Source: a virus. Taken from it: a DNA stretch of 64,000 nt. A program made the translations under genes and the position numbers. Numbering within the stretch: position 1 is the first letter of the stretch; each line of letters starts with the position of its first letter. The notes under the pieces were generated by a model that saw nothing but the letters and a program-made list of their open reading frames with translations, was not told the origin of the DNA and made no database searches. The stretch covers positions 22,037 to 86,036 of IMG/VR virus record IMGVR_UViG_3300023179_006134. One strand, 5' to 3'. Shown in pieces: positions 48,918 to 51,894 of the stretch.

Positions 48918-48946
48918 ATCATAGCAAATTTGAGAGGTTTTGTCAA
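48918..48946 (-). promoter_or_regulatory. Sigma70 promoter overlapping the psbA stop
   Basis: TTGACA (48941-48946) and TATGAT (48918-48923) with a 17-base spacer on the minus strand. The -35 overlaps the psbA stop codon. The predicted start sits beside the psbA terminator, so this promoter restarts transcription for the secreted-protein gene. Confidence 0.72.
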
Positions 48947-50037
48947 CCAATAGCAGGTGCAGTAGCAGGTGCAGTCAAGGCAACTGGTGTTGCTGCTGCT
49001 GTTGCAAGGTCGAGGGGGAAGTTGTGAGCATTGCGCTCGTGCATTACTTCAAGGCCAAGTCCAGCACGATTTAAAATGTCAGCCCAAGTGGGAATTACTC
49101 GGTTTTGACTATCAACGATGGACTGGTTAAAGTTAAAACCATTCAGATTGAACGCCATAGTAGATACACCAAGAGCAGTGAACCAAATACCCACGACGGG
49201 CCAGGCAGCAAGGAAGAAGTGAAGCGAACGTGAGTTATTAAAAGACGCATATTGGAAAATAAGGCGACCAAAATAACCATGAGCAGCAACAATATTATAG
49301 GTCTCTTCTTCTTGTCCGAACTTATATCCGTAGTTCTGACTTTCGGTTTCTGTGGTCTCACGAACCAGTGATGAGGTTACAAGTGAACCGTGCATCGCAG
49401 AGAACAATGAACCACCGAAGACACCTGCGACGCCCGCCATATGGAACGGATGCATCAGGATGTTATGTTCTGCCTGGAATACAAGCATGTAGTTGAATGT
49501 CCCAGAGATACCCAAAGGCATCGCATCACTAAAAGAACCTTGACCGAAAGGATAAACCAAGAATACAGCAGAGGCAGCAGCAACTGGTGCTGAATACGCA
49601 ACGCAGATCCAAGGACGCATACCTAATCGATAGCTAAGTTCCCATTCTCGTCCCATGTAAGCATAGATGCCAATGAGGAAGTGGAACACGACGAGTTGGA
49701 ACGGACCCCCATTGTAGAGCCATTCATCAAGGGAAGCAGCTTCCCAAATTGGATAGAAATGTAGTCCGATTGCGTTTGAGGAGGGGACAACGGCTCCTGA
49801 GATGATATTGTTTCCATAGAGTAAAGATCCAGCGACAGGTTCACGAATGCCATCAATGTCCACAGGGGGAGCACCGATGAATGCGATGATGAAGCAGGTT
49901 GTAGCAGCAAGTAGGGTTGGAATCATCAGAACTCCAAACCAACCAACATATAAACGGTTGTCAGTTGAGGTTACCCATTGGCAGAATTGTTGCCAGGGAT
50001 TTGTTGTTTGTCTTTGTAAGGCAATTGTAGCAGTCAT
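48943..50037 (-). CDS. psbA: Photosystem II D1 protein PsbA
   Basis: A 364-residue D1 protein with five membrane helices and all landmarks: [18 protein letters not shown] (Glu at the position 130 equivalent, the high-light type), the Q(B)/Tyr and His ligands in [19 protein letters not shown], and [13 protein letters not shown] with the C-terminal processing site after LDLA. It replaces photodamaged host D1 during infection to keep energy flowing. GC content and codon use are higher than in neighbours, as for host-derived psbA. Promoter, structured leader and terminator are all visible. Confidence 0.98.
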
Positions 50038-50060: not shown

Positions 50061-50158
50061 AGTTCGGGGGAACGAACTGTTGGCAGTATTCCTACACCAC
50101 CCTCCAGTGTAGGTAAAAAGACGTATTTGAATTCCCATAGGTCTTGGTTAGCGGGAAT
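50061..50158 (-). ncRNA. Structured psbA leader (PhotoRC-like)
   Basis: Three perfect hairpins lie in the psbA 5' leader: 50061-50078 (AGTTCG/CGAACT), 50091-50113 (CCTACAC/GTGTAGG) and 50131-50158 (ATTCCC/GGGAAT). Conserved PhotoRC-I/II RNA motifs are known upstream of psbA in cyanobacteria and cyanophages; position and hairpin arrangement fit, but I could not score the match. The gap 50038-50283 holds nothing else except the promoters listed. Confidence 0.6.
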
Positions 50159-50200
50159 GTGAGGAATCGTAAAGTTTTATCTTCATTTCCTAACTTATTT

Positions 50201-50283: not shown

Positions 50284-50475
50284 ATGTCAAGGGATTTCAA
50301 TACCCCTCAAAGAGAGGACTGGAATGGGCCCATACATAAGATACTAAAAGCAGTCGATAATCATACAAATCTATACTTAAAAACCGGAGATGCCTGGCAC
50401 GAAGAACAAGCAGAAGTATTAAGAAAGTATGTTGCTAGATTAAAAACCTGGATTCATAAACAAGAAGGAAAATGA
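50284..50475 (+). CDS. Small conserved-type cyanophage protein
   Basis: A 63-residue protein (NTPQREDWNGPIHKILKAVDN, LYLKTGDAWHEEQAEVLRKYV, RLKTWIHKQEGK), helical. It lies on the plus strand beside the lysis genes and overlaps the next start by four bases. Unknown function. Confidence 0.65.
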   Translation: MSRDFNTPQREDWNGPIHKILKAVDNHTNLYLKTGDAWHEEQAEVLRKYVARLKTWIHKQEGK

Positions 50476-50711
50476 AACTCAGTCTCAACAAACTTATTTT
50501 TATTGTCTGTATATCAGCAGTTAGTTTTGTTGGATTAAATTTTATTGCCTGCAACTTTATGATACCAGGATCTATCATTAGTGCTAATGTATTAGGAGGA
50601 CTAAAAAATCCTCCACCCTTAGATTGTAAAGAATCTGAGAGAAAAGGATATGAGACCCTCTTAGCAATTTTAACTACAGTAATTGCTTTGAGAACTAAAG
50701 TAGAAGATTAA
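50472..50711 (+). CDS. Small membrane protein, possible lysis factor
   Basis: A 79-residue protein. Residues 7-28 (IFIVCISAVSFVGLNFIAC) form a membrane helix or signal ending in a Cys that might be lipid-modified; the C-terminal part has a second hydrophobic helix (GYETLLAILTTVIALRTK). It meets the endolysin gene tail to tail. Such a protein next to an endolysin may be a holin or spanin component, but this is inference from place. Confidence 0.5.
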   Translation: MKLSLNKLIFIVCISAVSFVGLNFIACNFMIPGSIISANVLGGLKNPPPLDCKESERKGYETLLAILTTVIALRTKVED

Positions 50712-51202
50712 GAAATCCAGAGTTTTCCTTCTGCCTTTCTTCTTCTTAATAGTCCTGCTTCAACTTTACTACCAGGATTACGATATAGTTCTAATGTTTT
50801 TGGAATTGCATCCCAGTTTTTTTCACGTAAATGGTGAGTGATTGAACTAAAATTTCCAGATCCATAAAAACTAACCCCAAGATTGTAAGCAAAACTAAGA
50901 AGAGCACCACGTTTTCCGTCAGACATTTCACTCCAATAAGGTATTTTTGAAAGTGTAGGAATAAACTCATTTCTAATTTGACTTATCAAGAGATCATCAG
51001 CAACCTTTTGTGAAATCTTATCCCCAATTTTAAATGGTTTGCCAAGGAAATCTTTGGTGCTTCCCCAACCAATAGTAATCGGAAGATGTCCAGACAGAGG
51101 ATCTGGATATGCCTGTAAATGACAACCTTCAAACTCTTTAATAAGATCTACTCCTTTTACGGGTAAATATACTTTATCGGTAAAAGGAGTAGAACTTGTT
51201 AC
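50708..51202 (-). CDS. GH24 lysozyme module, entered by -1 frameshift from the peptidase gene
   Basis: The frame from 51202 down to the stop at 50708 codes for 164 residues of a phage lysozyme: VDLIKEFEGCHLQAYPDP with the catalytic Glu, LPITIGWGSTKDFLG, LLSFAYNLG and GLLRRRKAEGKLW. It has no ATG or GTG before the catalytic Glu; the first possible TTG is at 50987-50989 and would drop the active site. The frame is directly entered by -1 slippage at A AAA AAG (51202-51208). It should cut the glycan chain of peptidoglycan as the second half of a 395-residue endolysin. Confidence 0.82.
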   Translation of the reverse strand, partial: VTSSTPFTDKVYLPVKGVDLIKEFEGCHLQAYPDPLSGHLPITIGWGSTKDFLGKPFKIGDKISQKVADDLLISQIRNEFIPTLSKIPYWSEMSDGKRGALLSFAYNLGVSFYGSGNFSSITHHLREKNWDAIPKTLELYRNPGSKVEAGLLRRRKAEGKLWIS

Positions 51203-51208
51203 TTTTTT
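51147..51208 (-). promoter_or_regulatory. -1 ribosomal frameshift signal (peptidase-lysozyme)
   Basis: A AAA AAG heptamer at 51202-51208 in the peptidase frame, TAA stop immediately after (51199-51201), then an 8-base spacer and a perfect 14-bp stem (51180-51193 with 51147-51160) around a 19-base loop. These are the textbook parts of bacterial -1 frameshift signals. Confidence 0.78.
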
Positions 51209-51894
51209 GCGTCAAAAATTCTACCCCATCCATCATTACCATTTGGGCACCAACGAGCAGATAGATCTGATTTCTTATAGATAGCACCTTTGCCATTATA
51301 AACATCACCTGTATAACCATCGTTGAGTGATCCATAAGGATCGTTTACAACATAGTCACCATTCTGTGTCTTACCAATCACTACAACCATGTGGCCGCCC
51401 GTAGGATTAGACAAAGAACCACGATGTAGGATGCCAATAACAACAGGTTTGCCAGCACTAAGACTTTTATCAAGATCAGCAAAAGAAAGATTATAACTAA
51501 AATTTGACTGAATTCCATAATTTGCGAGAACTTGTGTCTGCACAGAATGATCAGTTGTATCACCGATAGCAAATACTTTTTGAATATATGCATCATCTCC
51601 TTGTGCTCCTTTAAGAGTTCCAGGTTTGAAATACTCAAGACACATCGCACAAGCAGAGGAATTACAAGTGCGATTTGCATCTCTATAATTATCTGTTTGT
51701 GGATAATAAGGAACTTCTAAACGAATATCAGATTTGGGTTTTTCAATTTTGGTTCTATAAATACGAACCCAATTTGAGTCATCATTCAACAATACTGAAT
51801 CGTTTAGATCCTTTTCAAGTTGATCTACAGCAGCAACATGTTTTGGATTTTTCGAATCATAAAATTCAAAAAACTTATGAAGATCGATTTTCAT
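51199..51894 (-). CDS. C39-like peptidase domain of the endolysin
   Basis: A 231-residue protein in the 0 frame. The peptidase core has YYPQTDNYRDANRTCNSSA with the likely catalytic Cys77, VVIGILHRGS, GGHMVVVIGK with His168 and YVVNDPYG with Asp185. This is the C39_2/papain-like arrangement seen in some phage endolysins, expected to cut peptide bridges or signal-type peptides. Residues 1-60 look like a spacer or binding region. The last codons GCA AAA AAG TAA contain the slippery site that adds the lysozyme. Confidence 0.78.
   Translation of the reverse strand: MKIDLHKFFEFYDSKNPKHVAAVDQLEKDLNDSVLLNDDSNWVRIYRTKIEKPKSDIRLEVPYYPQTDNYRDANRTCNSSACAMCLEYFKPGTLKGAQGDDAYIQKVFAIGDTTDHSVQTQVLANYGIQSNFSYNLSFADLDKSLSAGKPVVIGILHRGSLSNPTGGHMVVVIGKTQNGDYVVNDPYGSLNDGYTGDVYNGKGAIYKKSDLSARWCPNGNDGWGRIFDAKK

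Follow-up and report, generated by a model that had tools for sequence, protein, structure and literature searches.

A probable programmed -1 ribosomal frameshift joining peptidase and lysozyme in a cyanophage endolysin

The minus strand of a cyanophage DNA segment carries what is very probably (about 93%, in our estimate) a true programmed -1 ribosomal frameshift, through which an endolysin is made. In the proposed mechanism, most ribosomes would stop at the stop codon of the peptidase and release a 26-kDa C39-like peptidase, while a fraction would slip back by one base on the heptamer A AAA AAG, ahead of a stem located 8 nt downstream, and read on into a lysozyme. The slipped ribosomes would thereby generate a 44-kDa protein composed of an N-terminal module, the peptidase and the lysozyme. 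Frameshifting would be expected to occur in infected Synechococcus with some efficiency, and its purpose may be to place the shared N-terminal module on the lysozyme and to limit the dose of lysozyme relative to peptidase. The sequence basis of this predicted mechanism is shown by the reading frames, the heptamer, the stem, the missing lysozyme start, conservation, covariation, naturally occurring in-frame fusions and the mutually exclusive alternatives found in relatives, namely an overlapping lysozyme start or a separate lysozyme gene with its own N-terminal module. The predicted functions of the two products are held with only about even confidence.

The peptidase-lysozyme locus

The window, i.e. 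the whole 64,000-nt stretch of DNA analysed here, is part of an 86,036-bp IMG/VR virus record and contains cyanophage genes (psbA and that of a high-light-inducible protein). The junction of interest on its minus strand reads GAC GCA AAA AAG TAA (Table 1). The 231-residue ORF that ends at this point matches Peptidase_C39_2 (PF13529, E = 5.7e-15, 56.6 bits with a cut-off of 24), as well as phrog_3617 (E = 5e-99) and the endolysin family phrog_10051 (E = 1.6e-89), and its putative catalytic residues Cys77, His168 and Asp185 occupy columns that are invariant among relatives. By its profile match and this Cys/His/Asp set, the ORF is a predicted member of the Peptidase_C39_2 family; a search by sequence for a solved relative found none. 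The putative function of the short peptidase is cleavage of cell-wall peptides.

A first-pass annotation of the sequence had proposed that the -1 frame runs from the heptamer into a complete lysozyme. This frame is indeed free of stops down to position 50708, and matches Pfam Phage_lysozyme (PF00959, E = 4.5e-21) and the endolysin of PDB entry 7m5i (E = 1.6e-10). The catalytic residues Glu256, Asp265 and Thr274 (fusion numbering) are present, and together with the profile they identify the product as a predicted GH24 phage lysozyme, which is the only PF00959 match of the 86-kb record. No ATG, GTG or TTG precedes LIKEFEG, the segment with the catalytic Glu, in the lysozyme frame, in agreement with the earlier statement that a usable start is missing there. 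The fusion of 395 residues and the short form, for which masses of ~44 and ~26 kDa had been given, were computed at 44.1 and 25.7 kDa. AlphaFold modelling of a natural fusion (L213) with 20 fused relatives was of low confidence (mean pLDDT 55.6).

Table 1. Features of the predicted frameshifted endolysin gene (positions in the window)
Feature	Positions	Strand	Size or basis
0-frame ORF, C39-like peptidase, predicted short product	51199..51894	-	231 aa, 25.7 kDa
N-terminal module, ~50 aa, MKIDLHxFFxFYD..NPxHxxAVxxLE..W..YR	51727..51894	-	blastp and hhalign to lysozyme N-termini of relatives
Predicted slippery heptamer A AAA AAG, phase GCA AAA AAG	51202..51208	-	conserved in relatives
0-frame stop TAA, directly 3' of the heptamer	51199..51201	-	read in the sequence
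Candidate stimulatory stem, 5' arm	51180..51193	-	fold z -8.1
Candidate stimulatory stem, 3' arm, inside the lysozyme coding sequence	51147..51160	-	fold z -8.1
-1 frame, linker and GH24 lysozyme, C-terminal 164 residues of the predicted fusion	50708..51202	-	PF00959

Two small plus-strand ORFs (50284-50475 and 50472-50711) are directed towards the endolysin gene, sharing 4 nt with its end, and a similarly placed pair (gp276, gp277) occurs in phage S-SRM01. Neither ORF of the window has a PHROG match; the 79-aa member of the pair has the look of a membrane-associated protein and might act as a partner in lysis. An Rfam PhotoRC-II RNA, a known cyanophage element, is present at 50078-50172 on the minus strand, upstream of psbA (48943-50037).

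The frameshift signal and its conservation

The peptidase ORF had been described as ending in GCA AAA AAG TAA, with the heptamer in the correct frame, and as being followed 8 nt past the heptamer by a perfect 14-bp stem (TCTACTCCTTTTAC / GTAAAAGGAGTAGA) with a 19-nt loop; both descriptions are exact, the first to the base. The in-phase heptamer lies within the overlap of the two frames, as in the X XXY YYZ class of programmed -1 frameshift sites to which we predict it belongs. We note that the frameshift rules applied here are those of E. coli and that the host is cyanobacterial. A stimulatory RNA structure is expected about 5-8 nt downstream of such a heptamer (PMC4066793), and the stem of the window, at 8 nt, is the candidate for this role. 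Folding of the window junction with RNAfold added inner and outer pairs to this stem, giving -23.5 kcal/mol and a z score of -8.1 in comparison to 200 dinucleotide shuffles. The GGGG of the W-G-R codons is a candidate for a dnaX-like upstream Shine-Dalgarno sequence, but is largely forced by coding.

From four IMG/VR scans and phage records we collected 142 non-redundant loci carrying both domains, whose shared ancestry means that the counts given here are not independent events. At 101 of them a -1-frame lysozyme follows within 200 nt, and 86 of these 101 have an in-frame slippery heptamer no more than 3 codons from the stop (81 A AAA AAG, 3 T TTT TTT, 1 A AAA AAA and 1 A AAA AAC). All 15 heptamer-less loci of this set have an ATG or GTG that overlaps the stop. 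In the same 101 genes, A AAA AAG in frame is found at the junction in 81 and at none of 21,732 upstream codon positions, i.e. it occurs at the junction well beyond chance. The codon ahead of AAA AAG ends in A at all 75 distinct junctions, while the residue that it encodes varies (V, A, T, E, I) and A-ending codons make up 28-37% of the background among V, A and T codons. Directly after the heptamer, 57 of 65 relatives of this class have TAG as their stop codon, which ends 3 of 50 long window ORFs; this preference may have been selected for slow termination, or may be a consequence of coding in the -1 frame.

The stem is conserved along with the heptamer, as the first-pass annotation had suggested should be looked for in relatives. 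For the 68 distinct junctions that have a heptamer and no overlapping start, the mean fold z is -4.37; 64 of them reach p<0.05, a significant stem being absent from the other 4, and the first base pair is located 3-8 nt past the heptamer in 67. Control windows from the same genes (n = 204) gave a mean z of -0.12, with 7% at p<0.05, and heptamer-less controls gave -0.71 for fused relatives and -0.89 for relatives with their own lysozyme start. The arms belong to at least four unrelated sequence types, which include type II (CAACACCACA/TGTGGTGTTG), type III (CGCCAACTAA/TTAGTTGGCG), CTCTACTCC/GGAGTAGAG and GTAGAACC-CCTAA/TTAGG-GGTTCTAC. Within one type, represented by 21 sequences, 98.9% of cells are paired and 4 pairs show compensatory change; pairing exceeds that of all 500 shuffles and of all slid versions, a shuffle test that is inflated by kinship. 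The exchange of entire arms from one type to another is independent of this inflation. Conservation with stem covariation, as expected of a -1 frameshift signal, is apparent in the relatives.

Relatives without a conserved heptamer and stem, and with a lysozyme start of their own, had been named as an observation that would speak against frameshifting. Most relatives lack a usable lysozyme start, and heptamer and stem are often lost in those whose lysozyme has one. Heptamer and overlapping start occur together at 12 loci, where frameshifting may be a relic or minor. At seven loci (L255, L070, L083, L157, L167, L247 and L005), A AAA AAG or A AAA AAA is accompanied by an overlapping ATG or GTG start and by a stem that is usually short or weak. 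Such relatives are possibly intermediates between frameshifting and translational coupling.

Gene arrangements in cultured phages and other relatives

The closest annotated match is Synechococcus phage S-PM2, with 72.5% DNA identity over 99% of the region. Its junction shares GCAAAAAAGTAA with the window, differs in the linker and has a stem of its own; it is identical, with six As, in two separately deposited genomes. The S-PM2 record annotates a hypothetical protein and a separate 72-aa 'putative lysin' that starts past the catalytic part. The S-CAM7 isolates are annotated in the same manner; their junction reads GTT TTT TTT CCA CAG TAG, with the heptamer T TTT TTT, and is followed by a 13-bp stem that has one bulge and differs from the others. 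The complete S-PM2 and S-CAM7 genomes encode no PF00959 protein other than the lysozyme accessed by the predicted frameshift, and frameshifting would therefore control the main lysozyme of these phages.

The short lysin ORFs without a catalytic part measure 72-73 aa in S-PM2 (L004, 2457-2675) and S-CAM7 (L011, 3262-3480). PHROG family 10457 (95 aa, endolysin) aligns with the C-terminal half of the lysozyme only and may reflect this error of truncated-lysin annotation, and the full fusion corresponds to phrog_3617, which is listed as of unknown function.

Other relatives show different arrangements. ACG-2014f has a single fused ORF of 405 aa, S-CREM1 a fusion with the reversed domain order, S-SRM01 a lysozyme start that overlaps as ATGA, and DSL-LC02 and DSL-LC03 carry peptidase and lysozyme as separate genes. 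Seven As produce an in-frame fusion in the L213 group and in L215. The two frames have exchanged roles in ACG-2014f and L216: the fused ORF occupies frame 0, and a slip on A AAA AAG would lead to a stop one codon later, followed by a stem (in ACG-2014f, of no more than borderline significance). Some 18 relatives with an in-frame fusion lack the heptamer; the short product would therefore not be needed by all phages.

On a peptidase-domain tree, which was built by a quick method and is reliable in its starred branches only, even these calling for caution, the arrangement switches many times. The S-CAM7 signal is nested among in-frame fusions in a clade with strong support and therefore most likely arose separately, so that its heptamer and stem would represent an independent origin.

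The N-terminal module

Lysozymes encoded by separate genes usually carry their own copy of the N-terminal 50-aa module of the peptidase (7 loci, 60% identity, E = 1e-22 with blastp). A divergent module is carried by lysozymes that have an overlapping start and a long linker, with E values down to 9e-5, and hhalign to this divergent module gave a probability of 79% (E = 1.7e-5). The heptamer is present with none of the 22 lysozymes that have their own module and with 86 of the 89 that do not, counts that are not phylogenetically independent. That the heptamer never accompanies a module-bearing lysozyme suggests that frameshifting gives the lysozyme its N-terminal module. The simplest reading suggested by these comparisons is that the lysozyme needs the module, and that the frameshift would provide this module along with the peptidase, in an amount governed by the efficiency of the shift. 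The module may serve in wall targeting or folding, wall targeting being a guess.

We see an even chance that a balance between peptidase alone and the N-module-peptidase-lysozyme protein is maintained in cyanophages by several interchangeable routes: frameshifting into the long form, frameshifting out of a fused gene into the short form, a U-run signal that evolved anew, or a lysozyme gene standing apart that acquired its own module copy.

Alternative explanations

Separate synthesis of the lysozyme, by termination-reinitiation or by internal initiation at a non-standard start such as the ATT of LIKEFEG behind an AAGGAG in the 3' arm (GTAAAAGGAGTAGATCTTATT), would be compatible with the AAGGAG placed 8 nt before this ATT in the window and in type-I stems, and with the use of overlapping ATG or GTG starts in relatives. 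Type II and type III stems, however, have no such Shine-Dalgarno sequence; any ATG, GTG or TTG is missing in 36 of 74 cases, and a Shine-Dalgarno-like sequence precedes the downstream start in 3 only. A start would also leave the heptamer and stem unexplained, and the heptamer has disappeared from loci where the lysozyme has a genuine start and its own N-module; we consider separate initiation very unlikely. The AAGGAG itself was rejected as a start signal, being explained by K-G-V-D/E coding and missing from the other stem types. A two-polypeptide endolysin with an in-frame internal start was likewise discarded, since the lysozyme is read in another frame than the peptidase and lacks a start codon. 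Transcriptional slippage on the A6 (or T8) run could in principle join the frames in the mRNA, and eight Ts in S-CAM7 and seven As in the L213 group are in line with it, but it would have no need of a conserved stem placed at a set distance of 3-8 nt, or of the exact X XXY YYZ phase. In addition, six As followed by a G are shorter than the runs that are usually slippery for bacterial RNA polymerase, and we regard this explanation as extremely improbable. That the window contains a sequencing error or a decayed gene, and that the real gene is a simple fusion, is almost certainly wrong. The seven-A fusions of the L213 group and L215 do lend it some plausibility, but six As are found in both S-PM2 genomes and in dozens of distinct contigs, conservation extends to the lysozyme half with its catalytic residues, and the -1 frame of the window is joined only at the heptamer. 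The seven-A fusion, a natural allele in the L213 group, rather demonstrates that proteins of the predicted fused architecture exist, and is not a sign of sequencing error in the window.

A different matter is whether the frameshift is real and the short peptidase only a by-product, the signal serving to throttle the amount of fused endolysin. This is a tentative but serious possibility, as the heptamer-less fused relatives seem to make the long form only. It fits less well with ACG-2014f and L216, where slipping out of the fused frame would yield the short form, with the signal that S-CAM7 appears to have re-evolved within a fused clade, and with the stand-alone peptidase kept in phages with separate genes. 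Of the original proposal, the programmed frameshift leading to a fusion is supported, while two points go beyond the evidence: a short peptidase acting as a separate functional wall-cutter, and a fixed ratio of the products.

Relation to known systems

The E. coli dnaX gene (tau/gamma) shares with the window the heptamer A AAA AAG, a downstream stem at about the same distance and an N-terminus common to two products (PMC5009743). Its direction, with the long product in frame 0 and the short one in -1, is also that of the ACG-2014f relatives. In the window, S-PM2 and most relatives, in contrast, frame 0 ends at once and the -1 frame would give the long product, and the gene is a different one; dnaX moreover has a Shine-Dalgarno stimulator, whereas no clear one is established for the cyanophage locus. 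The lambda G/G-T tail chaperone, T3 capsid, A2 and PSA cases likewise join a pair of phage genes by a frameshift where the upstream frame ends, which yields short and extended forms from one start (PMC5009743). Those genes are structural or assembly genes, whereas the one described here is for a lysis enzyme with two predicted catalytic domains. CTP1L, Lys170, LysIME-EF1, phi2638A and Ms6 LysA also obtain a long and a short product from one endolysin gene (PMC9430671, PMC7098653, PMC3111421), but by in-frame internal starts, mostly in phages of Gram-positive hosts, and with a C-terminal part as the extra product. In the cyanophage endolysin, frameshifting would add a C-terminal enzyme, and the short product would be the N-terminal part.

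The first-pass annotation knew of no frameshifted endolysin of this type, and our search of the literature on frameshifting with endolysin, cyanophage or S-PM2 similarly found no description of such a case. The GeneTack survey holds no endolysin or lysozyme frameshift, nor does the accessible portion of the main frameshifting review. The claim of novelty is qualified by a lactococcal lysin (Shearman et al. 1994), from a different host, which is cited by PRFect as containing a frameshift (PMC10885494) and listed elsewhere under secondary translation products (PMC7098653). As far as we found, the mechanism is therefore known and its predicted use in an endolysin is new, the 1994 report aside.

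To our knowledge, this would be the best-supported case of an endolysin made through ribosomal frameshifting. It concerns phages of ecologically important picocyanobacteria, and the signal is carried by the cultured isolates S-PM2 and S-CAM7, whose odd annotation, an unnamed protein plus a 72-aa 'putative lysin' without the catalytic Glu, would be due to the true frameshifted endolysin having been missed. The variety of stems and arrangements provides a natural experiment on the origin and replacement of frameshift signals, and the idea of paired long and short endolysins would be extended to phages of Gram-negative-type hosts. If a balance between the two forms is indeed maintained, the ratio of two wall-cutting products would be a selected trait in the lysis of cyanobacteria.
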